NCBI RefSeq assembly: GCF_004054195.1
Contig: NZ_SBIW01000003.1
Location: 434,001-498,000, forward strand
DNA from: Mucilaginibacter gilvus
Lineage (GTDB): Bacteria > Bacteroidota > Bacteroidia > Sphingobacteriales > Sphingobacteriaceae
Reading direction: 5' to 3'
DNA: 64,000 nucleotides
Below the pieces are notes generated by a model. The model did not search any database, was not told the DNA's origin, and was given only the letters and a program-made list of their open reading frames with translations. Below, in pieces: positions 38,747 through 55,390 of this stretch. Each line of letters opens with the position of its first letter. Positions within the stretch are counted from its first letter, which is position 1. The translations under genes and the position numbers were made by a program.

Positions 38747-38832
38747 AGCGATAGATGATTGTTTATAGTTAGGGCGCTAAAATAATACAATTCTAAAGGA
38801 TATATTATTAACTGTTAATAAATAAAATAGAA

Positions 38833-39960
38833 TTATAGAACTATCCGCTTGCCCTCCGCAATGGAGCGTTTGGCCGCATCAAGTATCTGCATCACAGTCA
38901 TGTTATACTTTAGCGAAGAGCGATCATTAATACCCAGCAGGCGATTTTTAAGCACCAGTTGCAGGTAGGTAACCGGGTTATCCAGTGGTGCTTCCAAAGC
39001 GTTGGTGATGTTAGCGTTGATTACGTTATCGTTTACCCTTGTCGTGATTTTACTTCGGTCCAGCGCGTGTATATAGCCTTTATCGCCAAAAACTTCAAGG
39101 TCTTTTATGGAGAACGGCCAGTTCCATGATGCTTCTATGAGGCCTGTCGCGGTTGGGTATTCTATTAAAATGTTAACGTCGTCTTCCACTTTGGGGTAAA
39201 CATTGAGCTTAAAGTGACGGGCAACGGCGGTTACTGCAATTGGTTTCTGGCCTTCCATTAGCCAGGTCATCAGGTTGGCACCGTAGCAGCCAAAGTCGAT
39301 GAGTACGCCGCCGCCGTTTAGTTCCGGGTCGGTGAGCCAGCTTAAAAACTCCTTGCTGCAGCCAATTTCTTTTGGCCCCTGGTGCCCGTCGTGTACCACC
39401 ATTTTGCGGATGCGCCCAATGCTGTCCTTCGACGCCATATTGTACACGTGCTGGTAGGAGGGGTACCAGGTAGTTTCGTAGTTGGTAAGCAGTTTTATGT
39501 AATACTTCAGCGCCAAAAATTCCATGCGCTTGGCCTGCGCAAGAGTAGCAGCCAGCGGTTTTTCCACCATTACGCTGATCCCCAAAGGGGCGCAGATCTC
39601 CACCACATCGATGTGTTTTGCAACGGGGTTATAACCCAGCACCGCATCGGGTTTGGTGGTTACGGCCATCTTCTTCAGGTCGTCGAAAAAGATAGAATCG
39701 GGCAGATGGTATTTTTCCTGGTATTTGGCACGGAGCGCTTTATCTGCTTCGGCAATACCAACAATGATCACCTTGCCTTGCTGGTAATCGTTCAGAATGC
39801 CGTTTACATGATCGTGCGACATGCCCGCAATGCCAAGCCTAAGCGTACTCATCAATACCGGCGGTGTAAATTTTGCCTTTACCGTATCCTGCGCAAATAA
39901 AACTGATCTAAATACAGCCGAAAGTATGGCCAGGAAAAATAAAAATCGCGTTAATTTCAT
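38833..39960 (-). CDS. Exported Gfo/Idh/MocA-family oxidoreductase
   Basis: A 375-residue protein whose N-terminus (FLFFLAILSAVFRSVLFAQ) is a Sec-type signal peptide, followed by a Rossmann domain with LRLGIAGMSHDHVNGIL where the usual GxGxxG is altered. The conserved EKPLA motif appears as MVEKPLAATLAQ near 131, and the C-terminal alpha/beta domain holds VVHDGHQGPKEIG and GGVLIDFGCYGANLMTW. If exported, NAD must be bound before or during export; family members known to hydrolyse glycosides use bound NAD this way. An internal ATG at codon 37 would give a cytoplasmic form. It starts 21 nt after the GH92 gene on the same strand, so it belongs to that transcript. Confidence 0.85.
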   Translation of the reverse strand: MKLTRFLFFLAILSAVFRSVLFAQDTVKAKFTPPVLMSTLRLGIAGMSHDHVNGILNDYQQGKVIIVGIAEADKALRAKYQEKYHLPDSIFFDDLKKMAVTTKPDAVLGYNPVAKHIDVVEICAPLGISVMVEKPLAATLAQAKRMEFLALKYYIKLLTNYETTWYPSYQHVYNMASKDSIGRIRKMVVHDGHQGPKEIGCSKEFLSWLTDPELNGGGVLIDFGCYGANLMTWLMEGQKPIAVTAVARHFKLNVYPKVEDDVNILIEYPTATGLIEASWNWPFSIKDLEVFGDKGYIHALDRSKITTRVNDNVINANITNALEAPLDNPVTYLQLVLKNRLLGINDRSSLKYNMTVMQILDAAKRSIAEGKRIVL

Positions 39961-39981: not shown

Positions 39982-42264
39982 TTACTTTTCTGTTGATAGT
40001 GAATACGGTACATCCTCGGCTTTGATGCCTCTCGCTTTATTTGGCATTGCCGACATGCTGAAATTCAACACCCCGCCCTGTTGTAAAGCAGCATGACTCA
40101 GCCAGTTGTAATCGTACAGCTTGCCGTTTACTGTCAGAGTGTTTACATAACGGTTAGCATCGCTGTTGTTTGGCGCGTTAATAACCACTTTTTTGCCGTT
40201 CTCCAAAGTAAGCGTTAGTTTTTTAAACAAAGGCGTACCCAAAACATATTGTCCGCTGGATGGGCATACCGGGTAAAAGCCCATTGCCGAAAACACATAC
40301 CAGGCAGATGTTTGCCCGTTATCCTCATCACCGCAGTAACCATCAGGGGTAGCTTTGTACAGCTTATTCATTACATCGCGCACGTGCAGCTGGGTTTTCC
40401 ACGGCTGGCCTGCGTAGTTGTATAAGTAAGGCATGTGCTGGATAGGCTGATTGCCGTGCGCGTACTGCCCCATTCCGGCTATTTGCATCTCGCGGATCTC
40501 GTGGATAACTTCACCATAGTAACTGTCATCAAATACCGGCGGTAAAGACCATACCGAATCTAACTTGGTCACAAATTTTTCCTTGCCGCCCATTAGACCG
40601 ATAAGCCCGTTAATATCATGAAAAACGCTCCAGGTATAGTGCCAGCTGTTGCCTTCGGTAAATGCATCGCCCCATTTGAAAGGATTAAACGGAGACTGAA
40701 ATTTACCGTCCTTGTTTTTACCGCGCATTAAACCTGTTTGCGGGTCGAACAGGTTTTTGTAGTTCATGCTGCGTTGTTTATACACGTCGGTTTCAGCTGT
40801 TGGGCGACCCAGGGCTTTGCCTAATTTGTATATGGTAAAATCGTCATAAGCATACTCCAAAGTACGCGCGGCGTTCTCGTTTATTTTTACGTCATAGGGT
40901 ACATAACCAAGCGAATTGTAATAGTCAACACCATCACGGCCGGTAGCACGAGGCCCATCATTATTGGCACCATGGGTTAGGGCTTCGTAAAGCGTATTGA
41001 TATCGTAACCGCGGCCACCCTTAAGGTAAGCATCAGACACTACCGACGCGGAGTTGTTACCAACCATAACGTCCGAGTAACCCGGGCTGCTCCACTCCGG
41101 CAGCCAGCCGCCTTCTTTATAGTCGTTCACCAAGCCCGCCTGCATCTCTTTGTTGATGGCCGGGTAAACCAAATTCAGGAAAGGGTACAAAGCACGGAAG
41201 GTATCCCAAAAGCCCGTACCAGCAAATTTATAGCCGGGTTTTACCGTGCCGTCCTGTGCGCTCCAGTGCATAATTTGCCCTTTAGCGTCTACCTCATACA
41301 TCTTGTTAGGGAAGAACAACATCCGGTAAAGGCAAGAGTAAAATGTGCGGGTTTGGTCAACCGTGCCGCCTTCAACCGCCAAACGGCTCAGTGTTTTATT
41401 CCAGGTAGCTTTGGCCTTAGCTTCGGTAGCATTAAAACTATCTTTACCCACTTCTCGTTGCAGGCTTATTTCTGCTTGTTCTATGCTGATGAATGACGAA
41501 GCCACACGCAAGTGTACTTTCTCGCCTTTGGTAGTTTTGAAACCGATGATCGCGCTCACGTGTTTTGCGGTGAGTTCGCTACCGTCGTTCAATGTACTAT
41601 CGCTGTAAAGCTGCGCCAGACCGATAGGTTTATCTACATAAATAACAAAGTAGTTTTTAAAATTTTTTAGTGGCCCGCGGGCGTACTTGGTAGAGTAACC
41701 CACAATTTTGCCTTCGCCACGAAATACTTTAATGTATGAACCTTTATCAAAGGCATCTATCACAATGAATGAGCTATCTGATTTTGGGTAAGTGAACCTG
41801 AATTGCGCGCTTCGCTCGGTAGGGGTTATCTCGGTAGTAACATCATGGTCGGCCAGGTAAACGCTGTAGTAGTAGGGTTTGGCTATCTCTGTTTTATGCG
41901 AAAACCAGCTTTGACGACCGTTTTGCGTAACTTTTAGCTTACCAGTTGCGGGCATAATGGCAAATTGCCCGTAGTCATTCATCCATGGGGATGGCTGGTG
42001 GGTTTGTTTAAAGCCGTTTATCTTATAAGCATCGTAAGTGTACTGCCATCCGTCGCCCATTTTACCGGTTTGTGGGGTCCAAAAGTTCATTCCCCAGGGC
42101 AGGGCGATAGCAGGGTAGGTATTACCGTTGCTCAGGTCGTATTTAGATTGGGTACCCATCAGTGGGTTTATCCATTCAACCGGGTCGGCTATTTTTGGTG
42201 CCTGCTGGGCAAAAGTTGTGGTGGCTAAAAGTATCGAGCTAAAAAAGAGGAATCTTTTTTTCAT
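39982..42264 (-). CDS. GH92 alpha-mannosidase
   Basis: A 760-residue exported glycoside hydrolase (signal peptide ending TTFAQ, about residue 19). GH92 family stretches are DPVEWINPLMGTQSKY (about 27), YPAIALPWGMNFWTP (about 51), GFKQTHQPSPWMNDYG (about 85), GTGFWDTFRALYPFLNLVYP (about 343) and the late QTSAWYVFSAMGFYPVCP (about 667). These are Ca2+-dependent inverting exo-alpha-mannosidases acting on alpha-1,2/1,3/1,4 linkages of mannans or N-glycans. The exact linkage is not predictable here. It follows susD by 82 nt that contain a strong hairpin, so it may be partly uncoupled from susCD. Confidence 0.93.
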   Translation of the reverse strand: MKKRFLFFSSILLATTTFAQQAPKIADPVEWINPLMGTQSKYDLSNGNTYPAIALPWGMNFWTPQTGKMGDGWQYTYDAYKINGFKQTHQPSPWMNDYGQFAIMPATGKLKVTQNGRQSWFSHKTEIAKPYYYSVYLADHDVTTEITPTERSAQFRFTYPKSDSSFIVIDAFDKGSYIKVFRGEGKIVGYSTKYARGPLKNFKNYFVIYVDKPIGLAQLYSDSTLNDGSELTAKHVSAIIGFKTTKGEKVHLRVASSFISIEQAEISLQREVGKDSFNATEAKAKATWNKTLSRLAVEGGTVDQTRTFYSCLYRMLFFPNKMYEVDAKGQIMHWSAQDGTVKPGYKFAGTGFWDTFRALYPFLNLVYPAINKEMQAGLVNDYKEGGWLPEWSSPGYSDVMVGNNSASVVSDAYLKGGRGYDINTLYEALTHGANNDGPRATGRDGVDYYNSLGYVPYDVKINENAARTLEYAYDDFTIYKLGKALGRPTAETDVYKQRSMNYKNLFDPQTGLMRGKNKDGKFQSPFNPFKWGDAFTEGNSWHYTWSVFHDINGLIGLMGGKEKFVTKLDSVWSLPPVFDDSYYGEVIHEIREMQIAGMGQYAHGNQPIQHMPYLYNYAGQPWKTQLHVRDVMNKLYKATPDGYCGDEDNGQTSAWYVFSAMGFYPVCPSSGQYVLGTPLFKKLTLTLENGKKVVINAPNNSDANRYVNTLTVNGKLYDYNWLSHAALQQGGVLNFSMSAMPNKARGIKAEDVPYSLSTEK

Positions 42265-42300
42265 GTGTGAATTGATATTAGAGGAATTAAACCGGCTGTA

Positions 42301-42339
42301 AATATAAAAGACTGGCGGGTATTGCCAGTCTTTTATATT
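42301..42339 (-). terminator. Perfect 16-bp hairpin between susD and the GH92 gene
   Basis: Arms 42301-42316 and 42324-42339 are exact reverse complements with a 7-nt loop (GACTGGC stem core, TTTTATATT outer arm). On either strand it ends in a T-rich arm, so it can terminate transcription in both directions. Placed after susD, it probably limits read-through into GH92. Confidence 0.75.
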
Positions 42340-42346
42340 GATTTTG

Positions 42347-43846
42347 TTACCAACCAGGGTTTTGGGTGAGTTTTGTGTTGGTGTTTATTTCCCGCTGCGG
42401 TATTGCCCACAGGTAGTATTGCTGCTTCATGGTTACACCCTGTTCGTTAGGGGTGGAGGTAGCCTCTCCGAAGGAGTTATTTTTTACATTATACACCTTG
42501 TGTGTACGTTGAATATCGAAGTATGCTTTATCCTCATACGCCAGCTCGTGATAACGCTCTCGCCAAACAGCTTCTCTGAACGCTTCCTTTGGTAACGCGC
42601 CTACAGGTGCCAGCTGTGCGCGGGCCCTTATTTTATTAAGCTGGGCAATAGCTGTGGCATTCGGGCTGCCTTCGGCTTCGTTGCTTGCTTCGGCATATAT
42701 CAGCATTGCTTCCGGTAAACGCAGCAATGTCCAGTTTTCATCAGAACTGCCATTGCCTAATGCACTTTCTACATGAAAAAACTTGTACAAAGCGTGTTCG
42801 CCAAATTGTATGATGGTGTTTGGGTCTTTATCCTTCGGATAACTGGAGAAATAAAATTGTCTTTCCTTCGCACGTAAGTCACTGCTCTCGTAGCTTGCCA
42901 CAAATTCATCGGTGGGGATCATGGCTCCAAGGTGGTCACCGTAGGCACCTACCTGTAAATTAAATGGTAATGTAAGTTGCGGAATGGCATTGGTGCGTAC
43001 ACCCAGCAGGTAATTTATCTGGAAGATAAGTTCGCCAGTGTTTTTGTGGGCGTTATCGTGCAAATAATCGTATTTATCAAACAGCGTGTATTGATTCAAT
43101 ACGGGTAAAACCTCCTGTGCAGCCAATGCGTAATTTTCCGGTTTATTTAAAGGGAAGCCAGCCATCGTTAAGTATACGCTGCCCAATAATGTGCGTACAG
43201 CTCCAAGCGATGCGCGGCCCGTTTCTTCCTTTTCATCTATACCCGAAGCTTTGGCTGCCTGCAGGTCGCTTACAATCAAAGTATACACGTCGGCGATCGG
43301 GGTACGGGTAGGGTAAAGATTCTCGCTGTTTATAGCTACCGGTTCGGTAATCAAAGGCACATCGCCATAAAGCCTTACCAGGTGGAAGTAGAAGAATGCC
43401 CTTAAAAAGTATGCTTCGCCAAGTAGTCGTTTTTTATCCGCATCGGGCATAGTGATCTTGGGAATATTAGCGATGGCGATGTTGGCGTTTGAAATAGCGT
43501 TATAACTATTAGCCCAAACCGTTTGAAAACCCGGGTTGACCGAACTGGTAGTTTGTGTAATAACGGCCCGGTTGTTTACGCTTTGCCCAAGTGAGGTAGC
43601 ATGCCCGGCAAATAATTCAAGCGTAATAAAAGGGCTCTCGCCATAGGCATCACCGTTTTGGAACATATACAACGAGGTATAAATACCATTTACAAAGGTT
43701 TGGGCCTGCGATGCGGTTGTAAAGTAATTATCCTTTACAAAGTTGCCTTTATTTTCCTCATCGAGGTATTTTTTGCAGCTGCCAAGCGGCGCAGCAAGGA
43801 TCAGTATTAACAAACCGACCCTGTATTTTTTTAAGTTAAACTTCAT
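42347..43846 (-). CDS. SusD/RagB-family glycan-binding lipoprotein
   Basis: A 499-residue lipoprotein (lipobox LGSC, Cys24, followed by KKYLDEENKGNF). The N-terminal SusD-like region contains the tetratricopeptide-type helices that contact SusC (AYFLRAFFYFHLVRLYGDVPLI near 150). The RagB/SusD domain runs to the C-terminus, ending EINTNTKLTQNPGW. It sits on the outer face and closes over the SusC barrel as a lid, capturing oligosaccharides. It lies 25 nt after susC on the same strand. The ligand is presumed to be an alpha-mannan from the adjacent GH92. Confidence 0.93.
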   Translation of the reverse strand: MKFNLKKYRVGLLILILAAPLGSCKKYLDEENKGNFVKDNYFTTASQAQTFVNGIYTSLYMFQNGDAYGESPFITLELFAGHATSLGQSVNNRAVITQTTSSVNPGFQTVWANSYNAISNANIAIANIPKITMPDADKKRLLGEAYFLRAFFYFHLVRLYGDVPLITEPVAINSENLYPTRTPIADVYTLIVSDLQAAKASGIDEKEETGRASLGAVRTLLGSVYLTMAGFPLNKPENYALAAQEVLPVLNQYTLFDKYDYLHDNAHKNTGELIFQINYLLGVRTNAIPQLTLPFNLQVGAYGDHLGAMIPTDEFVASYESSDLRAKERQFYFSSYPKDKDPNTIIQFGEHALYKFFHVESALGNGSSDENWTLLRLPEAMLIYAEASNEAEGSPNATAIAQLNKIRARAQLAPVGALPKEAFREAVWRERYHELAYEDKAYFDIQRTHKVYNVKNNSFGEATSTPNEQGVTMKQQYYLWAIPQREINTNTKLTQNPGW

Positions 43847-43871
43847 AATAATGATCTATTAAATTGTTTAA

Positions 43872-46800
43872 TTAGAAACTTGCGTTTACACCAAGCAGGA
43901 ATGTTCTTGGTTTTGGATAATCATAAAACTGGATGCCTTGGGTAAAGTTGCTGTTACCGTTGTAGGTAGATACCTCAGGATCGTAACCGGTGTATTTGGT
44001 TATCAGGAACAGGTTTTGCCCTTGTGCATAAACCCTCAGCCTGCTCATTTTTAATTTCTTAAGAATGTTATTCGAGAAGTTGTAACCCAGTGTTACCGCC
44101 CTGCCGCGTATGAACGATCCGTTTTCTACCTTGGTAGAATAGATCTCGGTTTGATACCTCACATAGGCTGGCCTGTTTTCGGCTATGCTGGTGTTTTGGT
44201 TTTCCGGTGTCCACGCGTTTAATACAGTGGCGTAGCTGTTTGCCTGGCCGGTACGGTCCTGGCCCGAGTGGCGGGTTAGGTTCATAATCTGGTTCCCATA
44301 GTTAAACTGCAACTCTACACCCAAATCGATGTTTTTATAGCGGAAGTTGTTGGTTAAGGTACCGTAACCATCCGGAGTTGATTTTCCTAATACTTCGCGG
44401 TCGTCGGCACTGATCTTGCCGTCGCCATTCAGATCCTTTATTTTCAGATCACCCGGAAGCAGGTTGTATTTAGCCGCTTCAGTAGCTTCGCTGGTACCCC
44501 AGGTGCCTAACACCGTGTAACCGTAAAAGCTGCCGGGAGCAAGCCCAACGCGCATCAGGTTAAAGTCTGAAAGGAAGCCCGGCGACAGGTAGATATCGTC
44601 GTTATTAGCACCCAATGCAATGATCTTGCTTTTTAACAGCGAAATATTGAAGGAAGAGTTCCAGCTGAAATTATCGGTTTTTATATTTTGTGTGCTGATG
44701 GTGAACTCCAAACCCTTGTTTTGCAGCCTGCCAATATTTTTATAAACACTGCCAAAGCCACTGGTTTGCGGTAATGGCGCATTCAGCAGCAAGGCCTGGG
44801 TTTTCTTTAGATAAGCGTCGGCTTCCAACGTAACACGGTTGTTAAATAAGCCAAGTGATACACCAAAGTCTATCTCGGAATTTTTCTCCCATGACAGATC
44901 TTCGTTACCAATAGTGGTTTGGTGCGTGCCAATGGCTTGCGCGCCGCCAAAAATATAGTTGGTGGTCTCAATTCTGGCCTGCGATTGATACTCTCCAATC
45001 TCTGAGTTACCGGTTAGCCCGTAGCTTAAGCGGAACTTTAGGTCGGATATGGTTTTGTTATCCTTCAGAAAGGCTTCCTGCGATGCGCGCCACGCCAAGG
45101 CGGCAGAAGGGAAGAAACCATATTTAACGTTTTTACCGAAGCGGGATGAACCATCTTCACGACCGGTAACGGTTAACAAGTATTTCTCCTTGAGATTGTA
45201 ATTGATCCTGCCGAAAAACGACTGCATTTGCCACGCGTCGTAATTAGAGCCAGGTATGCCTGGGATTTTACCTGCTGCAAGGTTGTAATAACCATAAAAA
45301 TCGTCAGATAAGCTGCCAGTTGATGCGCCGAAACCTGTTTGCTTAAAATTTTGACGTTCGAAACCTGCCACCACGTTGATCTTGTGGATGTCGTTGAAGG
45401 TTTTATCGTAGGTGAAGTGATTTTCCCATTGCCAGAACGTGTTGTTACGCTCGCTGATAGAAGCCGAACTGTACTTCTGATCGGCAGTTGCGCCTCCAAC
45501 CAAACCTGTTTGCGAATTAGGGAAGTAATTTGCGGAGGTGGTTATTCCCAGTGTACTGCGGAATTGCAGGCCTGGCAATAGGTTGAAGTTTAAATAACCG
45601 TTACCGCTAAACACGCGGATCTTATTAAGGTTTACAATTTCGTTTGCCTGCGCAACGGGGTTATCGCCGCCCTCCATATTGGGGTAGTCGGTACGTTTGC
45701 CGTAGCTGCCGTCGGCGTATTTTATAGGGATGATAGATGGCATTTCAATTAACATACGCGGGATGTTGTTACCACCGGTACCATTATCCTGCAGGCGGCC
45801 ATCCTGCGCGTTGTAGTTTAAAGTAGCGCCAACTTTTAACCACGATTTTACCTGGTTATCAAAAGTTAGTCGGGCGTTATAGCGTTTTAAGTAGCTGTTA
45901 ATGATGATGCCCTGGTCGTCGGCATAGTTTAAGAACAAACCGTAATTCAGCTTTTCCGTGGCACCGGTGAACGAGAGATTATGGTTCTGGCTAACCGCGG
46001 TACGGGTTGTTGCATCCTGCCAGTCTACATCATATAGCGGCTGTAAATTACTATCGAATAGCTTACCTATTAATGCGGTGCGAATCACCTTTGGGTCTTT
46101 TTCGGCATAGTCACCTTTCGCCCAGCCAACCGGGTCGTATTTTTTGATGTTAGCATATGATTGGTCTTCCACCGCTAAAAATTGTTTCGCATTTAGCACC
46201 GGGATTTTGCGTGCCATTTTGCTTACGCTTACATAGCTATCATAACTTACGGACGACGGCGCTCCTTTGTTGCCACGCTTAGTGGTTACCAAAATAACAC
46301 CGTTTGCACCGCGTGTACCGTAAATAGCGGTAGACGATGCATCCTTCAATACATCGATAGATTCTACGTCATTAGGGTTAATGGAGTTACCGCCTTCTGT
46401 CCAAACCACGCCGTCGACAACGTACAATGGGTCGGTATTGGTGTTGATTGAGCTGTACCCACGGATGCGAATTTTGGTAGCACCACCTGGTGCACCCGAG
46501 TTGGTAGATACGTTTACACCGGCAATTTTACCGGCGAGTTCCTGCTCCAGGTTGGTTTGCGGCCTGTCCTGCAATTGGCGGCCGCTTACGCTGCCTACCG
46601 AACCGGTAAGGTCCACACGTTTTTGAGTGCCGTAGCCCACTACAACCACCTCACTTAGCGCCTGTGGCTGCTCTGCCAATACTACGTCAATGGTGGTGCG
46701 GTTATTAATGGTAACTTCCTGCGAGTTGTAGCCAATAAAGCTGAATACCAATGTGCCGTTCCCCTCTGGTACGGTGAGCTTGTATTTGCCGTTAACATCG

Positions 46801-47276
46801 GTTACTGTACCGGTTGTGGTACCTTTAAGCTTTACATTTACACCAGGCAAAGGGCCTTTGGCATCTGTAACTGTACCAACAATGTCTACTGCTTTAATTT
46901 CAACAGGGTTGTTATCGGCATCCTTCTTTTTTACCACAATGGTCTCCTGGAAGATCCTGTAGGTAAGGGGTTGGCCTTCAAAGGCTTTGTCGAGTGCTTC
47001 GGAAATGGTGACCTTAGATACTTCGATATTTATAGCACCCACTCTTGATACATCCTGCTTATCATACATAAAATGATAACCGGTTTGTTTTTCTATCTGG
47101 CGCAGGATCTTTTCAACCGAGGTATTCTTTTGTTTTAAAGAAACCACCTGGCTGTAAGTTTTGGCGCTGATGTTGGTGAGGGCTGCAATTATTAAAATGG
47201 CAGTGAGTTTCATAACCAAAATAATTTTGGAAAGTTTAGGCCACGCCAAGGGCATGGCCTTAGAATTAAAATTCAT
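43872..47276 (-). CDS. SusC/RagA-family TonB-dependent outer-membrane transporter with STN domain
   Basis: A 1134-residue importer. After a signal peptide (TAILIIAALTNISAKTYSQ), a secretin/TonB short N-terminal (STN) domain lies at about 50-120, then a carboxypeptidase-regulatory-like domain (GTVTDAKGPLPGVNVKLKG, about 133-205). The plug carries VVVGYGTQKRVDLTGSVG (about 212) and IRIRGYSSINTNTDPLYVVDG-type sequence, and the barrel follows. The STN domain is the part that contacts a FecR-type anti-sigma protein; the matching FecR and sigma genes lie just upstream on the same strand. It thus both imports the glycan with SusD and signals its presence. ATG at 47276 assumed. Confidence 0.94.
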   Translation of the reverse strand: MNFNSKAMPLAWPKLSKIILVMKLTAILIIAALTNISAKTYSQVVSLKQKNTSVEKILRQIEKQTGYHFMYDKQDVSRVGAINIEVSKVTISEALDKAFEGQPLTYRIFQETIVVKKKDADNNPVEIKAVDIVGTVTDAKGPLPGVNVKLKGTTTGTVTDVNGKYKLTVPEGNGTLVFSFIGYNSQEVTINNRTTIDVVLAEQPQALSEVVVVGYGTQKRVDLTGSVGSVSGRQLQDRPQTNLEQELAGKIAGVNVSTNSGAPGGATKIRIRGYSSINTNTDPLYVVDGVVWTEGGNSINPNDVESIDVLKDASSTAIYGTRGANGVILVTTKRGNKGAPSSVSYDSYVSVSKMARKIPVLNAKQFLAVEDQSYANIKKYDPVGWAKGDYAEKDPKVIRTALIGKLFDSNLQPLYDVDWQDATTRTAVSQNHNLSFTGATEKLNYGLFLNYADDQGIIINSYLKRYNARLTFDNQVKSWLKVGATLNYNAQDGRLQDNGTGGNNIPRMLIEMPSIIPIKYADGSYGKRTDYPNMEGGDNPVAQANEIVNLNKIRVFSGNGYLNFNLLPGLQFRSTLGITTSANYFPNSQTGLVGGATADQKYSSASISERNNTFWQWENHFTYDKTFNDIHKINVVAGFERQNFKQTGFGASTGSLSDDFYGYYNLAAGKIPGIPGSNYDAWQMQSFFGRINYNLKEKYLLTVTGREDGSSRFGKNVKYGFFPSAALAWRASQEAFLKDNKTISDLKFRLSYGLTGNSEIGEYQSQARIETTNYIFGGAQAIGTHQTTIGNEDLSWEKNSEIDFGVSLGLFNNRVTLEADAYLKKTQALLLNAPLPQTSGFGSVYKNIGRLQNKGLEFTISTQNIKTDNFSWNSSFNISLLKSKIIALGANNDDIYLSPGFLSDFNLMRVGLAPGSFYGYTVLGTWGTSEATEAAKYNLLPGDLKIKDLNGDGKISADDREVLGKSTPDGYGTLTNNFRYKNIDLGVELQFNYGNQIMNLTRHSGQDRTGQANSYATVLNAWTPENQNTSIAENRPAYVRYQTEIYSTKVENGSFIRGRAVTLGYNFSNNILKKLKMSRLRVYAQGQNLFLITKYTGYDPEVSTYNGNSNFTQGIQFYDYPKPRTFLLGVNASF

Positions 47277-47283
47277 AAGTTTG
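47276..47283 (+). promoter_or_regulatory. Possible -7 box (TAAGTTTG) of an antisense transcript
   Basis: TAAGTTTG on the plus strand fits TAnnTTTG and overlaps the susC start codon. It lies about 70 nt before a plus-strand terminator. No -33 motif was found. Confidence 0.3.
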
Positions 47284-47289
47284 TAGAGT

Positions 47290-47386
47290 TTGGGTTAAAC
47301 ATTAAGTTTCAATTCGTCAGATTGCGATGGTTGGGGAACCCAGATGCTTAGCCGGAGAAGTGGTCGAAACACTTCCCGGTTTTTTT
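47290..47386 (+). ncRNA. Possible antisense small RNA opposite the susC leader
   Basis: A plus-strand transcript starting just after the TAAGTTTG box and ending at the terminator at 47380-47386 would be about 97 nt, fully complementary to the susC 5' leader and containing no plus-strand gene. Cis-antisense RNAs at exactly this position, between the sigma/anti-sigma genes and susC, are known in Bacteroides (for example DonS of B. fragilis). The ends are inferred from the box and hairpin only. Confidence 0.35.
47352..47386 (+). terminator. Plus-strand rho-independent terminator in the susC leader
   Basis: CCGG-A-GAAGTG (47352-47362) pairs with CACTTC-CCGG (47370-47379), ten base pairs with one bulged A, and is followed by seven T (47380-47386). 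All adjacent genes are on the minus strand, where no T-tract follows, so it faces an antisense transcript. Confidence 0.7.
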
Positions 47387-47518
47387 ATGATCTGTTGGCA
47401 TGTTTAGCCCAACCGGGTTCGCTTTGCGGGCTAACTTGGCTGTCGTCGTAGTGCTTCAATCATGGTGTGTTTTTTAAGGTGAATATTGGTAATGTATATT
47501 GGGTGTTTTTTTGGCTGT

Positions 47519-48712
47519 TTATAGAACAATAATGTTCTTTCCTTCAATTTTTAATTTTACGCCCGTGTACTCCAGCATGTTAAGTAACTCGGATGCCTTT
47601 ACGCTGCGTGCTATACGGCCATTAAATTCCCGGTGGGGAATGGTACCTTTGTAGATCACATCCACATCGTACCAGCGTGATGCCTGGCGCAATATCATAT
47701 CTATCCCCGCGTCCCTGAACTGAAAGATGCCGTTCTTCCATGCGGTTTCGTCGTCTACATCCACATCATCAACCACTTTGCTTTGGCCGTTGGCGGTTAT
47801 TTGTGCCTGCTGGCCGGGTTTAAGCCTGGCGCTAAAGTTTCCGCTTTTAATGTTTACCGCGCCTTCCAGCAGTGTTGTTTTCATCGTGGTTTCGTCGTCA
47901 TAAGCCATTATGTTGAAATGTGTGCCCAGTACCTCAATTTCGGCACGGTTGGTTTTAACCTTAAAAGGCATCGCAGCGTTTTTCGCCACCTCGAAATAAG
48001 CCTCGCCGGTTATATCCACCTCTCGGGTTTTGCCCGTAAAAAATATAGGAAAACGCAAGGACGATGCAGCGTTCAACCAAACTTTGGTGCCGTCGGGTAA
48101 AATAACCTGGTATTGCCCGCCGCGTGGCGTTACGATGGTATTGATGGATGGGGTAGGGCTGTTGTCGGCCATGGCGGCGGCGTTATACAGCAACTGCCCG
48201 TCGGCAGTTTTTTTAACTACGGTAGCGCCTTGCTTAGCAAGTGTGCCGTTTTGGGCGTTATCCAGAATAATGGTTTTGCCATTGGCGAGGGTAAGTATGG
48301 CCTTGTTACCGCCGGGTAAAGCATCATGCGCAGGGTGTTTAACTGCTTTGGCCACCGTTTGCACTGGCTGTTGCTGGCGTAAATAGTATTGAACACAAAA
48401 CCCTACGAAGAGCAACATCACTGCCGCCGCTGCAATTTTACCCCATAAGATCAACGTTCGACCGGGCTTCAGGCTGTTATCGGTATCGGCGGAGCCCAGT
48501 ATGTTTTTTAAAATGGCATTTGATTTATCAACATTAAATAAAGGCTCACCTGGTTTGATCTCCTCCCAGGCCTGGCGGATATACCTGGACAGTTCTTCAT
48601 CGCACTTGCCGTCATCTATTATAGCAAACAACTCGTCGCACTCCTGCGGAGTGGCCGTTTTGTTATAATATTTATCAAAAAGGTATTGCAACCTCACGCT
48701 GGATGTTTTCAT
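47519..48712 (-). CDS. FecR-type anti-sigma factor
   Basis: A 397-residue inner-membrane protein. A cytoplasmic anti-sigma helix bundle (TPQECDELFAIIDDGKCDEEL, about 18-38) precedes one membrane helix (IAAAAVMLLFVGFCVQYYL, near 93-111). The periplasmic FecR domain follows (GGQYQVILPDGTKVWLNAA, near 198; TGEAYFEVAKN, near 239; EVLGTHFNIMAY, near 262) and a C-terminal DUF4974 module ends EGKNIIVL. It holds the ECF sigma factor inactive until the STN domain of SusC reports substrate. The sigma gene ends 88 nt upstream; susC starts 242 nt downstream. Confidence 0.92.
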   Translation of the reverse strand: MKTSSVRLQYLFDKYYNKTATPQECDELFAIIDDGKCDEELSRYIRQAWEEIKPGEPLFNVDKSNAILKNILGSADTDNSLKPGRTLILWGKIAAAAVMLLFVGFCVQYYLRQQQPVQTVAKAVKHPAHDALPGGNKAILTLANGKTIILDNAQNGTLAKQGATVVKKTADGQLLYNAAAMADNSPTPSINTIVTPRGGQYQVILPDGTKVWLNAASSLRFPIFFTGKTREVDITGEAYFEVAKNAAMPFKVKTNRAEIEVLGTHFNIMAYDDETTMKTTLLEGAVNIKSGNFSARLKPGQQAQITANGQSKVVDDVDVDDETAWKNGIFQFRDAGIDMILRQASRWYDVDVIYKGTIPHREFNGRIARSVKASELLNMLEYTGVKLKIEGKNIIVL

Positions 48713-48800
48713 TAAATGTTGTTCAATAATTGGCAGTGTATAAAGCCGGGGAGCTTTATGTTAAAGACACAAAAGGCAAATAAAAAGGGGGTATCGCTTC

Positions 48801-49394
48801 TTAACTTTTTTTCAAAATAATTGCAGCAAGCGCAATTACTACCGACATATCCATGTTCGACTGCACAAAGATGGTGATAGAATGGGTAGAAGCCTGCAGG
48901 TATTTTTTAACAGTTTCGCGCGACAGGCCCATCTGGCTGGCTATCTCATCGTATTTTAAGCGTTTATGGCGGCTAAGCAGGTATACCTTTTGCTGCTGCG
49001 GCGGCAGGTGGTCAATGGCCTCGTCCAGCAGGCTGTAGTAGGTATCTAAGCCGCTGTTATCTTCAGGGATCAGTGCCATCGCGTTTTCTTCGATGGTTTT
49101 TTGGCGGAGGCGTTCTTTTGCGAGTTTTCGCAAGCAGTTGAGCGCATGATTTTTAGAAATTACAAACAAATAGGCTTTGAAGTGCTGTATCGCGGCAAGG
49201 CTTTCGCGGCTAAGCCAAATTTTAAGGAAAACGTCCTGCACCACTTCTTCTGCAAGTTCGGCCGAACCGGTTATACGGTAGATATGAGTACCTAAAAGCT
49301 GATGATGGGTGTTGAACAGTTCACTAAAGGCGTGTTCATCTCCGCCGGCAACTCTCAGGAGTAACTCGTTTTCGCAAGGTATTACGTCTAACAT
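48801..49394 (-). CDS. ECF-type RNA polymerase sigma factor
   Basis: A 197-residue group IV sigma factor. Region 2 binds the -10 element (AFSELFNTHHQLLGTHIYR, then AEEVVQDVFLKIWLSRESL, near 47-65). Region 4 is an HTH (LPPQQQKVYLLSRHKRLKYDEIASQMGLSRETVKKYL). The last residues form a hydrophobic end (MSVVIALAAIILKK), which is common in Bacteroidota sigma factors paired with FecR. It is expected to direct transcription of the downstream susCD-GH92 genes. ATG at 49394; it lies alone at the head of the locus. Confidence 0.92.
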   Translation of the reverse strand: MLDVIPCENELLLRVAGGDEHAFSELFNTHHQLLGTHIYRITGSAELAEEVVQDVFLKIWLSRESLAAIQHFKAYLFVISKNHALNCLRKLAKERLRQKTIEENAMALIPEDNSGLDTYYSLLDEAIDHLPPQQQKVYLLSRHKRLKYDEIASQMGLSRETVKKYLQASTHSITIFVQSNMDMSVVIALAAIILKKS

Positions 49395-49558
49395 AGGCTG
49401 TTATTGGTGCAGGCAAGTAATGAAAAATTAACTACAACCGCAACCCCAATAATGTTTTGATGTTAAAAAAGTATCACAATGTGTAAAATAGACACTTTTT
49501 AATTTCCTAATTGGTAAATATTTAACCAATGATAAATACAGCCCGTCGCGCAATTATG

Positions 49559-50581
49559 TTAAAATAATGACGGATTGCCCCCCAGTTTTATCCTTCCTAA
49601 ATGCTTATAAGCGGCTTCTGTAGCTTCGCGGCCACGGGCTGTTCGCATTAAAAAGCCCTCCTGTATCAAAAAAGGTTCGTAAACTTCTTCAATGGTACCT
49701 TCTTCTTCGCCAACGGCGGTCGCTATGGTTTTCAGGCCAACAGGGCCGCCCTTAAATTTATCTATGATCGTCGTCAGGATTCTGTTATCCATCTCGTCAA
49801 GACCGTGTTCATCCACATTAAGGGCGTTCAAAGCATATTTGGCAATGGCGGTGTCAATGTTGCCGTCGCCTTTTATCTGGGCAAAATCTCGTGTGCGGCG
49901 CAACAGCGCGTTTGCTATACGGGGTGTACCACGGCTTCGGCGGGCAATTTCATAAGCGCCCTCGTCGCTAATGGGAGTTTTTAATATGGATGAGGAGCGC
50001 AGAACAATGGTGGTTAACAGTTTCGCGTCGTAATATTCCAGCCGGGCGTTTATGCCAAACCTTGCCCGTAAGGGAGCGGTAAGCAAACCGGAGCGTGTGG
50101 TTGCGCCAACGAGGGTGAAAGGGTTAAGCGAAATCTGCACAGAACGTGCGTTTGGCCCGCTCTCCAGCATAATATCTATCTTAAAATCTTCCATGGCCGA
50201 ATACAAGTATTCTTCTACGAGGGGGCTTAAACGGTGAATCTCGTCTATAAAAAGAATATCGCCCGTTTCCAGGTTGGTGAGCAGGCCGGCGAGGTCGCCT
50301 GGTTTATCAAGCACCGGGCCCGATGTTATTTTAATGCCTACACCCATCTCGTTGGCCACTATGTGCGAGAGGGTAGTTTTGCCCAGCCCCGGAGGGCCGT
50401 GCAGCAACACATGATCTAACGCTTCGCCACGTTGGCGGGCTGCTTGTACAAATATTTTTAAGTTGGCTAATATCTTATGCTGCCCCGTAAAATCTTCAAA
50501 AGCCTGCGGGCGCAATACTTTTTCTATATCGCGTTCGGCAGGAGAGAGGTGCTCACGTTCCGGATCAAGATTTTCATTCAT
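49559..50581 (-). CDS. ruvB: Holliday junction branch-migration helicase RuvB
   Basis: A 340-residue AAA+ ATPase that, with RuvA, drives Holliday junction migration in recombination and replication repair. Walker [12 protein letters not shown] lies near 60, Walker [19 protein letters not shown] near 109, sensor 1 [10 protein letters not shown] near 157, and the C-terminal winged helix ends at [12 protein letters not shown]. The start is set at the ATG at 50581 ([14 protein letters not shown]), the usual RuvB N-terminus; an in-frame TTG lies two codons upstream. A near-consensus TAATTTCG box precedes it. ruvA and ruvC are not nearby. Confidence 0.96.
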
Positions 50582-50600
50582 TGCCAACGAAATTAGTATT

Positions 50601-50701
50601 TTTTAGTTAGATGTTAGATACGAGATTTGAGATTTGAGACAAAAATGCTTAGCAGCAAGGCATTATCTCACATCTGACATCTCACATCTCACATCTCAAA
50701 T
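50601..50701. repeat. Inverted 'ACATCTCACATCTCA' repeat between ruvB and the glycosyltransferase
   Basis: GATGTTAGATACGAGATTTG near 50609 is complementary to the CATCTCACATCTCACATCTC block at about 50671-50697. The element resembles the CAAGAATCAAGAG repeat at 3884 in style but not in sequence. It might act as a terminator for the minus-strand genes on either side. Confidence 0.5.
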
Positions 50702-51433
50702 CTATCCTTCCGGATACTTCCTGAAAATGCTATTGAATTTCATTTGCAGTACGCCAAACACGGCTTCTTTAAAAATTCCTTTAGACATTTTGGAGGTGCC
50801 GGCGGTGCGGTCGGTAAAGATGATTGGGATCTCTTTTACCCTGAAACCATGTTTAATAGTGGTGAATTTCATTTCTATCTGGAACGCGTAACCTACAAAT
50901 TTTACCTTATCCAGTTCGATGGTTTCCAGTACCTTACGCCTGTAGCACATAAAGCCTGCGGTGGAATCCTGGATGTCGATACCGGTAATAAAACGCACGT
51001 AAACCGATGCGAAATAACTCATCAACACCCGGCTCATGGGCCAGTTAACAACGTTTACACCTTTGATATACCGCGAGCCAATAACCGCGTCGTTATCATC
51101 TATACAGGCCTGGCGCAGGCGAAGCAGGTCATCGGGGTTATGCGAAAAATCGGCATCCATCTCAAAAACATAATCGTAATGGTTGGCAATGGCCCATTTA
51201 AAGCCGTGGATGTAGGCTGTGCCTAAACCCAGTTTACCCGCTCGTTCTACAATGAAAAGTTTTTCGCCATAATCGCGCTGTAAGGATTTAACAATCTTTG
51301 CGGTACCATCGGGCGAACCGTCATCCACAATAAGTAAATGGAAATCGTGCACAAGCGAAAACACTTTGTGAATCATCCTTTCGATGTTTTCCTTCTCGTT
51401 GTAGGTTGGTATAATTACTATACTATCCGGCAC
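50702..51433 (-). CDS. DPM1-like polyprenol monophosphomannose synthase
   Basis: A 243-residue family 2 glycosyltransferase of the dolichol-phosphate mannose synthase type, transferring mannose (or a related sugar) from GDP-sugar to a polyprenyl phosphate. The GT-A core shows VIIPTYNEKENIE (about 6-18), LIVDDGSPDGTA (about 34), the metal-binding MDADFSHNP (about 92), and the late QDSTAGFMCYRRKVLE (about 155). The short length and lack of C-terminal membrane helices match soluble Dpm1. It may supply mannose for envelope glycans or protein O-mannosylation. Gene neighbours do not indicate the acceptor. Confidence 0.85.
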   Translation of the reverse strand: MPDSIVIIPTYNEKENIERMIHKVFSLVHDFHLLIVDDGSPDGTAKIVKSLQRDYGEKLFIVERAGKLGLGTAYIHGFKWAIANHYDYVFEMDADFSHNPDDLLRLRQACIDDNDAVIGSRYIKGVNVVNWPMSRVLMSYFASVYVRFITGIDIQDSTAGFMCYRRKVLETIELDKVKFVGYAFQIEMKFTTIKHGFRVKEIPIIFTDRTAGTSKMSKGIFKEAVFGVLQMKFNSIFRKYPEG

Positions 51434-51498
51434 TTATCAATAATTGAAATGAGGTAAATGTAAACGGCTAAAATAATCCAATTTATATTGGTTCAACA

Positions 51499-51529
51499 CA
51501 AAAAAACAGGAAAGCTGCTGCAATCCTGT
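51499..51529 (-). terminator. Terminator of the peptide transporter gene
   Basis: On the minus strand ACAGGA and TCCTGT form a 6-bp stem with a 12-nt loop, followed by seven T. It lies 73 nt beyond the POT gene stop. Confidence 0.65.
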
Positions 51530-51601
51530 ACTTTTTAGGTAATATTTTCTTTACACGCTATCTTTTGCCTTAAATGCAAACGGCTTAGGCGAGTAAATAT
51601 T

Positions 51602-53107
51602 TTACACGATAGGGTTATCGGGATGAATTTTGCTGGTGTGATCGTCGCGGATATCCATGCCTTTTGCCAACACATCTGCCGCTAAGTAGGCTTTCTCTTT
51701 GATGAATGGGCTTACAAAAACAAATATCAACACAAAACCAAAGCAGATAGCCACAAACAGCCAGAAGAAAGATGCGCCTGTAAAACCCTTAAACATACCA
51801 CCACTTGCAATGCTGTTGGTTACAACTGCATTAAAAAACGACCCCACCGAATAGGTGAAATACCAAATGGCTGTCATCGTGCTTTTCATGGACGGCGGTG
51901 ATTGGGTGTAGGCATACTCCAGGCCAGTGATTGAAACCAGTACTTCGCCGGCAGAAAGGATTGCAAACGCCAATATTTGCCACCACACGGATGGATGCTG
52001 GCCTGCGTCAACTTTTACCTGCAGTAAAGCGATAATAACAAAACTAAACCCGGTAATAAACAAGCCGGCCCCAATTTTGCGCAACGCCGTGAGTTTAATG
52101 CCCAGTTTTGCTACCAATGGGTACAATACATAGTTGAAGAGCGGTATAAACGCAAGCAGAAAAACCGCGTTTACGGTTTGTATTTGCGAAGGAAGAATAG
52201 TCCAGTTGCTGATGCCAAGGCCAAGGTCGAGTTTTTCGGATTGCAGCACCCACTCGGCACTGTTCATATCCCAAAGCGACCAAAATACAGGGATAAAGGC
52301 AAATACCGCCATAACGCGCCAAACTGCTTTTATGCCGTCAACTTTTTGTTCGCTGTATTTTGCCTCAGCGCATTCCCAGGCGGTTTTACCGGTTGCTTTT
52401 GCTTTGCCGTTGAATTTACACATCATTGCATAAAAACTAACGGATACAAAATTGTCTTTGTTAATGCCTTTTGGAGGTAGTTTTACATAACTTTTTCTTC
52501 CCGAGAAAAAGATGATAGTGGCCAACGCCATCAGGATGCCCGGTACGCCAAATGCCCATGATGCTCCCCATTTTTCGTAAATAAGGGGGATGAGAAACAA
52601 GCTTACCATAGAGCCCGCATTGATACTGAAATAAAACCAGCTGTAAATGCTGCTCATTAAATGCTGGTTGCTATGGTCGAACTGGTCGCCCACGTTTGCG
52701 GATACGCAGGATTTGATGGCACCTGCCGAAAACGCGATAATAATTAAACCTGTTTGAAAACCGCCGAGGCTGGTATCAAACATTGAAAGTAAAAAGTGCC
52801 CGATCGTATAAATAAGGGAACCGATAAGGATAACGCGATATTTACCAAAGAACCAATCGGCCAGGATAGCCCCCAATAGTGGAGTAGCATAAACCAGTGT
52901 AGAGAACATGTGATTTATGCTACTTGATTTTGCATTGGCGATTGCGGTAGCATCGTGACTGAAAAACTGGTGTACCAGGAACACAGCCAATATGCTGCGC
53001 ATTCCGTAAAAGCTAAAACGTTCGGCAAATTCGTTGCCTATAATAAAAGGTACACTTCTTGGGATCCTGCCTTTCGGCTTTTCTGATGCTATCGGGGTTT
53101 CCTGCAT
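51602..53107 (-). CDS. POT-family proton-dependent oligopeptide transporter
   Basis: A 501-residue major facilitator with about 12-14 helices. The POT signature is clear: the ExxER-like motif FAERFSFYGMRSIL (about 28-41), the conserved EKWGASWAFGVPGILM (about 176) and the second POT motif GEVLVSITGLEYAYTQSPPSMKS (about 385-407). It imports di- and tripeptides with protons. The tail DDHTSKIHPDNP is hydrophilic. Alone on the minus strand with its own terminator. Confidence 0.93.
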   Translation of the reverse strand: MQETPIASEKPKGRIPRSVPFIIGNEFAERFSFYGMRSILAVFLVHQFFSHDATAIANAKSSSINHMFSTLVYATPLLGAILADWFFGKYRVILIGSLIYTIGHFLLSMFDTSLGGFQTGLIIIAFSAGAIKSCVSANVGDQFDHSNQHLMSSIYSWFYFSINAGSMVSLFLIPLIYEKWGASWAFGVPGILMALATIIFFSGRKSYVKLPPKGINKDNFVSVSFYAMMCKFNGKAKATGKTAWECAEAKYSEQKVDGIKAVWRVMAVFAFIPVFWSLWDMNSAEWVLQSEKLDLGLGISNWTILPSQIQTVNAVFLLAFIPLFNYVLYPLVAKLGIKLTALRKIGAGLFITGFSFVIIALLQVKVDAGQHPSVWWQILAFAILSAGEVLVSITGLEYAYTQSPPSMKSTMTAIWYFTYSVGSFFNAVVTNSIASGGMFKGFTGASFFWLFVAICFGFVLIFVFVSPFIKEKAYLAADVLAKGMDIRDDHTSKIHPDNPIV

Positions 53108-53217
53108 TATTGTAGTGGGGATAAAATTTGCGCTAAAAATACTATAATTATACTAAACCAAAATTTTATACCGAAATTATTACAGAATGGTATATCAATG
53201 ATGGTTAATTGATTTGT

Positions 53218-54144
53218 TTACTGCTGTATTGTTTTTCTTACAGGCACCTGGTCTCTATCTATAATAGCCTGCTTTTTGGGGTCTATAATGTCAATATCCT
53301 CGGGCTGGGGAATGTTGCGCATATCCAGGTTCTCTACAAAAAACCATTTGCCGTCTTTTAGTTTATAGCCATCGTAACTCAGGTCGGGGCCAAAGGTATC
53401 GGGCTTATCCTTCATTTTTGGGTCGGGCGGGGCCAGGTGGTCAAAAACGATAACACCCTGTTCGGGTACGTAACGCAGCAGCATAGATGCCTGCCGGGTA
53501 TACTCAAACACCACACGCTTACGGTTTTTGCCGTTGCCATTAAAAACGCCCATGCCCATTGCCGGTTTATTTTCCCGGTTAAACGAGATCACATCTATTA
53601 CCTTTTTATTGGACCGAACGGTGCTGCCTTTCCAACCCAGTAAAACGTAGTAGGGGTTATTGGTATCTACCCGGATGATCTTATAATACTGGGCACCGTA
53701 CCATTTGCGGTTATCGGTGAGGCTGTCTTCCGGGTTTTTTAGTAGCGGGGAGTAATCTTCCAGGGGGTACATTACCAGCTTATCGCCGGTGTTCATTTGT
53801 ATGGTGCCGTAAAAGCGATAGCTGCCGTCGGCGTTCATAATATGCCAGCTGATGATACGGAAACGATTATCGGGCGCTTTAATGATGCTAACACTTTTTA
53901 CCGAATCGAACGGGAAACGGAATGAATTGTTAACTCTTAAGGCAGCTACCAGCGTAGGGATGAACTTATAGTTGGCCGCTTTACGGGCCAGGTCGTCGGT
54001 ATCGTTTATAAAGCGTTTGCCCAGGTTGGCCAGGCTATCCTGGTACATGCGCAGCAGTTTTTGATTGCCACTGTCATCTGAATGCTGGGCAAAGGAAAGG
54101 GTGGAAACAAATAGGAGGGTAAAAGCTAAAAAGAAAACTTTCAT
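53218..54144 (-). CDS. Exported hypothetical protein
   Basis: A 308-residue protein with a signal peptide (MKVFFLAFTLLFVSTLSFAQ) at the ATG at 54144; a longer frame begins 15 codons upstream but would spoil this signal, so it is not used. The mature part is soluble, aromatic-rich and tryptophan-containing (MNADGSYRFYGTIQMNTGDK, WYGAQYYKIIRVDTNNPYYV). I do not recognise the family with confidence; the sequence is like exported Bacteroidota proteins of unknown function. It is separated by 67 nt from the thiolase on the same strand and has no evident functional link. Confidence 0.65.
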   Translation of the reverse strand: MKVFFLAFTLLFVSTLSFAQHSDDSGNQKLLRMYQDSLANLGKRFINDTDDLARKAANYKFIPTLVAALRVNNSFRFPFDSVKSVSIIKAPDNRFRIISWHIMNADGSYRFYGTIQMNTGDKLVMYPLEDYSPLLKNPEDSLTDNRKWYGAQYYKIIRVDTNNPYYVLLGWKGSTVRSNKKVIDVISFNRENKPAMGMGVFNGNGKNRKRVVFEYTRQASMLLRYVPEQGVIVFDHLAPPDPKMKDKPDTFGPDLSYDGYKLKDGKWFFVENLDMRNIPQPEDIDIIDPKKQAIIDRDQVPVRKTIQQ

Positions 54145-54211
54145 CAATGGGTTTACAATAAAAAATCTAACGTTAACAATAAGATTCACCTAAAATACAG
54201 CTAATTCCCTG

Positions 54212-55390
54212 TTAACGTAAATTTTCAATAATCATTGCGCTTGCGCCACCGCCGCCGTTGCATATACCCGCCGCGCCAAGCTTGCCGCCATTCTGTTGTA
54301 AAACATGTATCAGCGTAACAATAATACGCGCGCCCGAAGCGCCAAGCGGATGCCCTATAGCCACCGCTCCACCATTTACGTTAACTTTCGCGGGGTTTAA
54401 ATTTAATAATTTGTTGTTCGCAATTGCAACCACGGAGAAGGCCTCGTTTATTTCGAAGAAATCAATCTGATCTGCCGATACTCCAGCTTTATGCAATGCC
54501 AGTGGGATCGCTTTTGAAGGGGCGGTAGTAAAATATTCCGGTGCTTGCTGTGCATCGGCGTAAGAAACTATTTTGGCTAAAGGCTTTATACCCATCGCTT
54601 CGGCTTTTTCTTTACTCATTAATACCAGCGCCGCAGCGCCGTCATTAAGGGTAGAAGCATTGGCGGCGGTAACGGTACCGTCTTTTTTAAACACCGGTTT
54701 TAGCGTGGGGATCTTATCGAATTTCACGGCAGCAGGTTCCTCATCATTGCTAAATAAGCTTACTTCGCCTTTTTTATCTTTTAGCTCTACCGGGGTTATC
54801 TCGTCGGCAAACTTCCCGGCAGCTTGCGATGCCTGCGTGCGTTTGTACGATTCTATCGCGAAAGCATCCTGGTCTTCGCGGGTAACGTTGCAATCTACAG
54901 CGCAAAGTTCGGCAGCGGATCCCATGTGGTAGTCGTTATATACATCCCATAGGCCGTCTTTCACCAAGCCATCGGTTATCTGGCCGTTGCCTAAGCGGTA
55001 ACCATTGCGGGCCTTATCCAAATAATAGGGCACATTGCTCATGCTTTCCATACCGCCTGCCAGTACAATATCGTTATCGCCATTGGCGATGCTTTGGGCG
55101 GCCAGCATTATAGCCTTCATGCCCGAAGCGCAAACCTTATTAACCGTAGTAGCGGGCATAAAAGGCAGGCCGGCAAATATTGCGGCCTGGGTAGCAGGTG
55201 CCTGGCCCAAATTGGCCGACAATACGTTGCCCATATAAACTTCCTGGATATCGGAGGGTTGCAAACCGGCTTTTTCAACTGCCGACTTAATAACCACAGC
55301 GCCCAAAGCCGTAGCCGATAAATTTGCAAGGCTGCCGCCGAAACTGCCGATAGGGGTACGCGTTGCCGATACGATATGTACTTCTTTCAT
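54212..55390 (-). CDS. Acetyl-CoA C-acetyltransferase (thiolase)
   Basis: A 392-residue thiolase that joins or splits acyl-CoA by Claisen chemistry. The acyl-accepting Cys lies in VNKVCASGMKAIML (about 88), the active-site His in AIGHPLGASGARI (about 346), and the second Cys in GAAGICNGGGGASAM (about 376). The NEAF motif is INEAFSVVA (about 315). Length and the VCASG motif fit the biosynthetic, acetoacetyl-CoA-forming group; a beta-oxidation role cannot be excluded. The promoter box TAACTTTG lies 30 nt before the ATG. Independent of neighbours. Confidence 0.93.
   Translation of the reverse strand: MKEVHIVSATRTPIGSFGGSLANLSATALGAVVIKSAVEKAGLQPSDIQEVYMGNVLSANLGQAPATQAAIFAGLPFMPATTVNKVCASGMKAIMLAAQSIANGDNDIVLAGGMESMSNVPYYLDKARNGYRLGNGQITDGLVKDGLWDVYNDYHMGSAAELCAVDCNVTREDQDAFAIESYKRTQASQAAGKFADEITPVELKDKKGEVSLFSNDEEPAAVKFDKIPTLKPVFKKDGTVTAANASTLNDGAAALVLMSKEKAEAMGIKPLAKIVSYADAQQAPEYFTTAPSKAIPLALHKAGVSADQIDFFEINEAFSVVAIANNKLLNLNPAKVNVNGGAVAIGHPLGASGARIIVTLIHVLQQNGGKLGAAGICNGGGGASAMIIENLR

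Follow-up and report, generated by a model that had tools for sequence, protein, structure and literature searches.

Antisense RNAs encoded in the PULs of Bacteroides usually end at an intrinsic terminator of their own and, by an account of Cao et al. from 2016, reportedly go with susC loci of the ECF sigma/anti-sigma type. Members of the DonS family have a length of 78-128 nt (PMC7366714), and DonS of B. fragilis represses its PUL (PMC7366714, PMC11697453, PMC10994844) by a mechanism that is given as unknown (PMC11697453). An atlas of B. thetaiotaomicron puts the number of PUL-associated antisense RNAs at 32 and asks for functional studies of this class; some of the antisense-susC pairs correlate positively (PMC10994844). 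Antisense transcripts were also detected by RNA-seq in Flavobacterium psychrophilum in a study that cites the B. fragilis case and suggests like functional studies in flavobacteria (PMC9723704). The initial annotation of the locus described here had pointed to antisense RNAs at susC leaders of Bacteroides, with DonS as the example, and the literature agrees on this point (PMC7366714, PMC10994844). For Sphingobacteriaceae no antisense RNA of a susC leader was found in the open-access literature, which was represented mostly by titles and abstracts.

The window, i.e. the whole stretch of 64,000 nt from Mucilaginibacter gilvus that was analysed, contains a candidate for such an RNA in the leader of a susC gene (Table 1). 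A plus-strand terminator with a ten-pair stem and seven T had been claimed for a region in which every gene is on the minus strand; the terminator is present, with one bulged A in addition, and all listed ORFs of more than 200 aa between 35541 and 55390 are indeed on the minus strand. Its 5' arm consists of CCGG (47352-47355), the bulged A (47356) and GAAGTG (47357-47362), followed by the loop GTCGAAA (47363-47369), the 3' arm with CACTTC (47370-47375) and CCGG (47376-47379) and the T-run (47380-47386). The TAnnTTTG box, which had been placed about 70 nt before the terminator and over the susC start codon, lies 68 nt before the stem, and the first T of TAAGTTTG is the pairing partner of the A in the ATG of susC. 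The predicted plus-strand RNA of 97 nt folds with -30.6 kcal/mol (z -2.39; 3 of 200 shuffles were equal or better). It matches no Rfam family at gathering score, the sole such match in the whole window being a tRNA elsewhere, and a simple scan of positions 40000-55000 found 20 terminator-like sites compared to a shuffle mean of 20.3, hence no excess. Taken alone, terminator and box of the window are weak and no better than chance; the finding is significant because the element is conserved in relatives, not through the sequence of the window alone. A box that is only translation-start context next to a chance palindrome would suit the result of the scan, but this reading is very improbable, as it is already contradicted by the family survey, the controls and the pair covariation presented below.

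Table 1 Features of the susC leader and of the host locus in the window
Feature	Positions	Strand	Remarks
Antisense -7 box TAnnTTTG, predicted promoter	47276-47283	+	TAAGTTTG; lies across the start codon of susC
Predicted antisense RNA, about 97 nt	47290-47386	+	5' end predicted from the box
Stem P1	47288-47296 with 47336-47345	+	G-U changes keep the pairs in the antisense reading
Stem P2	47310-47313 with 47321-47324	+	invariant, thus no evidence for or against pairing
Intrinsic terminator of the antisense RNA (P3 and T-run)	47352-47386	+	
Mini-ORF, 10 codons (MIEALRRQPS)	47431-47463	-	upstream of the antisense gene, within the leader of susC
susC, TonB-dependent transporter	43872-47276	-	STN and plug domains; likely target
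susD	42347-43846	-	
GH92 glycoside hydrolase	39982-42264	-	
FecR-type anti-sigma factor	47519-48712	-	
ECF-type sigma factor	48801-49394	-	sigma-70 regions 2 and 4; Sigma70_ECF model itself below its cut-off

The earlier label of a mannan locus is fair, since susD is followed by a gene of GH92, a family of alpha-mannosidases. The GH92 gene is in turn followed by genes for a Gfo/Idh/MocA oxidoreductase and a polysaccharide deacetylase (37835-39960), a combination that would be compatible with an N-glycan or a mannose-rich target. A hairpin with a stem of 18 pairs is located between susD and the GH92 gene (42301-42339) and is possibly an mRNA-stability or partial-termination element. Equivalents of the mini-ORF in the susC leader, with 7-10 codons and typically reading MMEEIPKIS, are visible in 38/38 orthologues; in the 37 aligned loci L048 to L091 they are found approximately 134-230 nt before susC. 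Their stop codon varies (TAA, TAG, TGA), as it would for a translated leader peptide. Some of 51 paralogous leaders have a mini-ORF as well, with no clear rule.

Conservation was assessed in the leaders of orthologous genes. A scan for relatives of the SusC protein yielded 44 loci (39 with Mucilaginibacter in the title), and the alignment comprised 38 sequences, namely the window and 37 loci (36 titled Mucilaginibacter and L063, titled Bacteroidetes bacterium). Seven of the 44 loci, in which the match did not start from residue 1, were left out: L065 and L077, which lie at contig edges, and L070, L082, L083, L088 and L090, in whose leaders, viewed by eye only, no such element was noticed. The comparison of the hairpin across relatives that the initial annotation had proposed thus showed that none of the 38 aligned orthologues lacks the box, the terminator stem or the T-run on the antisense side. 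The box reads TAAGTTTG in 33 of them and TAGTTTTG in the other five, which are sequences with shifted flanks. For the first alignment RNAalifold by itself gave 19 pairs, of which one has a double change. In the named structure, 96.5% of the 846 cells of the orthologue alignment are standard pairs, and changes on both sides occur in 18 cells compared to 6.2 in shuffles. Within the terminator stem, double changes among the 37 distinct sequences replace G-C by A-U in 12 sequences and U-A by C-G in 5. The number of pairs with a double change (3 compared to 1.8 in shuffles, reached by 78/500) and that of further pair types (11 compared to 12.8) show no excess. That the element is kept in 38 orthologues speaks against a chance palindrome.

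A stem can act on either strand, and the hairpin might function in the sense mRNA of susC, as an attenuator or as a hairpin that controls ribosome access. In the sense RNA the stem would be just as stable: the mean energy is -14.1 in antisense and -14.2 in sense orientation, with the antisense value lower in 13/38 sequences, and its paired cells (343 antisense, 337 sense) favour neither strand. The conserved mini-ORF upstream would also fit such a sense hairpin. P1, which links the 5' end of the RNA with its middle, in contrast pairs far better in antisense, with 325/333 paired cells of the orthologue alignment versus 203/333 in sense, although this count is biased toward antisense because P1 was taken from the antisense fold of the same sequences. 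The changes in P1 are G-U when read antisense and would be A-C when read sense. It is this pattern, together with the T-run on the antisense side in all aligned orthologues, from which the antisense strand was assigned. The family survey, which is independent of P1 and applies one rule of energy and T-run to both strands, detected a sense terminator in only 1/87 leaders, and we regard a function in the sense leader as distinctly improbable.

For this survey, 89 Sphingobacteriaceae loci were sampled as higher-ranked STN matches, i.e. not at random and with one place with a 442-aa frame left out, and 87 were counted after omission of L138 (no FecR) and L146 (no start). The start codon was taken as the most upstream ATG, with some likely starts missed (L121, L154), and terminators were accepted at 60-180 nt from the ATG on the antisense side and, more laxly, at 20-180 nt on the sense side. 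Both the rule for energy and T-run and that for the box were fixed after the family loci had been viewed; since the rules were set post hoc, shuffles and controls under the equal rule are the fair comparison. The 87 FecR-linked STN-susC leaders contain a strong antisense terminator in 51, the start-codon box in 58 and both in 40 cases, compared to 0.9%, 2.2% and 0/1740 for dinucleotide shuffles. On the sense strand, one terminator and two TAnnTTTG boxes were present. The 51 leaders with a terminator come from 15 genera, by hand count every genus with loci sampled, and by the rule 36/87 leaders have no terminator and 29/87 no box. For the 40 loci with both elements the predicted RNA, with its 5' end placed from the box, has a median length of 90 nt, with 31/40 at 78-128 nt and 38/40 at 60-130 nt.

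Controls were provided by 45 susC leaders without detectable FecR, of which 25 are from the own genome, where 30 of 32 SusC were examined, and 20 from eight family genomes. They contain no antisense terminator, one box and never both, in addition to five sense terminators. A terminator-like hairpin on the sense strand is seen in four of the 25 own-genome leaders without FecR (within L103-L132) and might represent attenuators or terminators of the preceding gene. The FecR-linked genes of the two control genome sets (n = 15) have five terminators, eight boxes and three times both; the ten contributed by the eight family genomes are partly included in the 87 already counted, and the five from the own genome show a terminator in 2/5 and a box in 3/5 by rule, or three and four by eye. 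The association is confounded: a search for STN that covered the 25 own-genome controls gave no match for 24 of them, although the FecR-linked L121 escaped it too. At least 24/45 controls thus show no STN match, and the tie may be to the STN-type SusC rather than to FecR.

The 11/87 family leaders that have a terminator without a recognised box could indicate that only the terminator matters, by stopping stray antisense transcription that comes from susC before it reaches the FecR and sigma factor genes. Against this stand the box at the start codon in 58/87 leaders, far above the frequency in shuffles and the single case in 45 controls, and the position of the stem, which ends 75-127 nt from the ATG in 47/51 terminator-bearing leaders. 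We consider this explanation improbable.

The position of the box is more in keeping with a promoter than with a translation signal. Measured from the ATG, the 58 family boxes are offset by +1 in 31, +5 in 19, 0 in 6 and -2 in 2 cases, and in the +5 register the box dictates TAT or TAC as the second codon. Several registers argue against a translation signal, which should hold only one, while a promoter need not do so. In the own genome there are only 14 copies of the sequence CAAANNTATGAA, compared to 37 of the reversed control pattern, and four of the 14 are at the start of STN-susC genes with FecR upstream (L104, which is the window gene, L109, L111 and L121, the last with the box at a Met codon that follows the first ATG of the gene). 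This distribution, like the single box among the 45 susC controls that have no detectable FecR, would be hard to reconcile with mere translation-start context. Of the features of a sigma-ABfr-type promoter, the -7 box is conserved at the susC starts, whereas no -33 motif stood out at the expected distance from the 58 boxes, a point against the predicted antisense gene; no -33 element was identified in F. johnsoniae either (PMC7366714). In three loci (L342, L343 and L344) the ATG at the antisense box opens an ORF of 45 codons that overlaps a later susC start about 130 nt from the box; a purine-rich, AGGAG-like stretch precedes that start, and the ORF may be a split-off N-terminus of SusC.

How far the element extends was followed with a covariance model (R1) built from the 38 leaders. 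It finds the window site, which is one of its building sequences, at an E-value of 1.1e-24 and, up to E = 0.001, has matches in 103/149 Mucilaginibacter genomes with up to nine per genome; matches to orthologues are given by construction, those to paralogues are not. A family-wide draw gave matches in 46/121 genomes and 13/20 genera. We inspected 20 of the higher-scoring matches, picked by eye and without an abutting entry among the susC matches listed; some of the 20 look near-identical (L340 and L341). Each of them has, at the 5' end of the RNA or shortly behind it, a frame that resembles STN-susC, and FecR is present upstream in the fetched stretch for 17, the exceptions being L340, L341 and L348. 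In other families of the class, represented by genomes picked for many STN matches and with a terminator window of 50-180 nt (one f47 locus is at 57), terminator, box and both were found in 11, 14 and 10 of 20 leaders (f63), 7, 3 and 3 of 14 (f47), 2, 1 and 1 of 6 (f4) and 1, 1 and 1 of 3 (f2), and no sense terminators in these leaders. A draw from class and phylum with 27 FecR-linked STN loci, of which five (L162, L163, L164, L249 and L250) recur in the other-family survey and one (L255) belongs to Sphingobacteriaceae, had six terminators, two boxes, two times both and one sense terminator. Either the element is less common outside the family or the rule fits worse there. Among the loci of the same phylum only L188 had box and terminator, with a start codon that was chosen to fit the box.

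The antisense RNA over the susC leader that the initial annotation had claimed is the best reading of these data, given its presence in 38/38 orthologues and in 40/87 FecR-linked leaders versus 0/45 without detectable FecR. We think it likely that a cis-antisense RNA of the DonS type, about 97 nt in length and transcribed from the box promoter, restrains susC by pairing with its leader. Anatomy, strand and the link to FecR/STN-type susC are supported by the comparison; transcription, repression and the mode of action are what we infer from it. A housekeeping-type promoter, with its -7 box over the susC start codon, would drive an RNA that runs back through the susC leader and stops at its own intrinsic terminator before FecR. 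Since the ends of the RNA would lie about 13 nt (5') and about 110 nt (3') ahead of the ATG of susC, it would be complementary to the leader only, from about -13 to about -110 of the susC mRNA. Pairing with the leader may then block ribosome entry or destabilise the mRNA, by which susC and the susCD-GH92 unit would be kept low until the ECF sigma factor is freed by FecR and strong sense transcription overcomes the restraint. The positive correlations of some antisense-susC pairs in B. thetaiotaomicron, as reported in the atlas, count against such a restraint (PMC10994844).

The main rival accepts a real antisense gene that acts by transcription itself: the facing promoters or polymerases would interfere with each other, and strong sense transcription would shut the antisense promoter, giving a switch. 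Promoter and target do face each other, the box lying across the start codon. When the own genome was searched at the DNA level for a leader like that of the window, only short matches appeared (best E 0.175), yet box and terminator recur at paralogues. Against this, P1 is kept as an RNA structure in the orthologues, which interference alone would not need. We hold interference as the sole mode of action to be rather unlikely and prefer the restraint by leader pairing. As the arrangement recurs at many related susC genes of the family, the antisense RNA probably serves as a standard brake in the uptake of glycans, of a type already described for gut Bacteroides. A more far-reaching model, which we offer as tentative and somewhat doubtful, is that the antisense RNA forms a standard third part of the ECF sigma/FecR/STN-SusC module across much of the phylum and that the start-codon promoter makes sense and antisense transcription exclusive, giving a threshold or a bistable switch. 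Such uptake genes can be abundant, as 4/41 sampled Sphingobacteriaceae genomes have 30 or more STN-domain matches. If many of them carry their own antisense brake of fixed anatomy, this would amount to a general layer of RNA regulation, for whose detection the sequence would suffice. The comparative set of box, terminator, P1, strand and FecR/STN link provides sites for mutation and predicts which genes have such an RNA.

With the antisense RNAs of F. psychrophilum the predicted RNA shares the occurrence in Bacteroidota outside Bacteroides, with transcripts in that case and a prediction in ours, and the portions of that report consulted describe no susC-leader family (PMC9723704). The likeness to DonS-type RNAs extends further. 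In both cases a short cis-antisense RNA would be divergent to susC at its leader in a glycan-uptake locus, and the predicted length of about 97 nt at the window locus fits the described range of 78-128 nt (PMC7366714). An own intrinsic terminator is present at the window locus and in 51/87 family leaders, and the association with ECF/anti-sigma loci is seen in the same 51/87 FecR-linked leaders with a terminator versus 0/45 without detectable FecR, STN being confounded with FecR in this comparison. With its GH92 gene, the window locus would be suited to an N-glycan or to mannan as the target. Unlike DonS, the element is found in other families of the phylum, as a prediction from sequence, and it was compared with DonS by the description of the latter. 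The rule of a box over the start codon and the tie to FecR/STN-type susC do not appear in the examined part of the literature on Bacteroides antisense RNAs. In these two properties, too, the present element contrasts with DonS: in 58/87 family members its -7 box lies over or next to the start codon of susC, and it goes with susC genes of the FecR/STN type.
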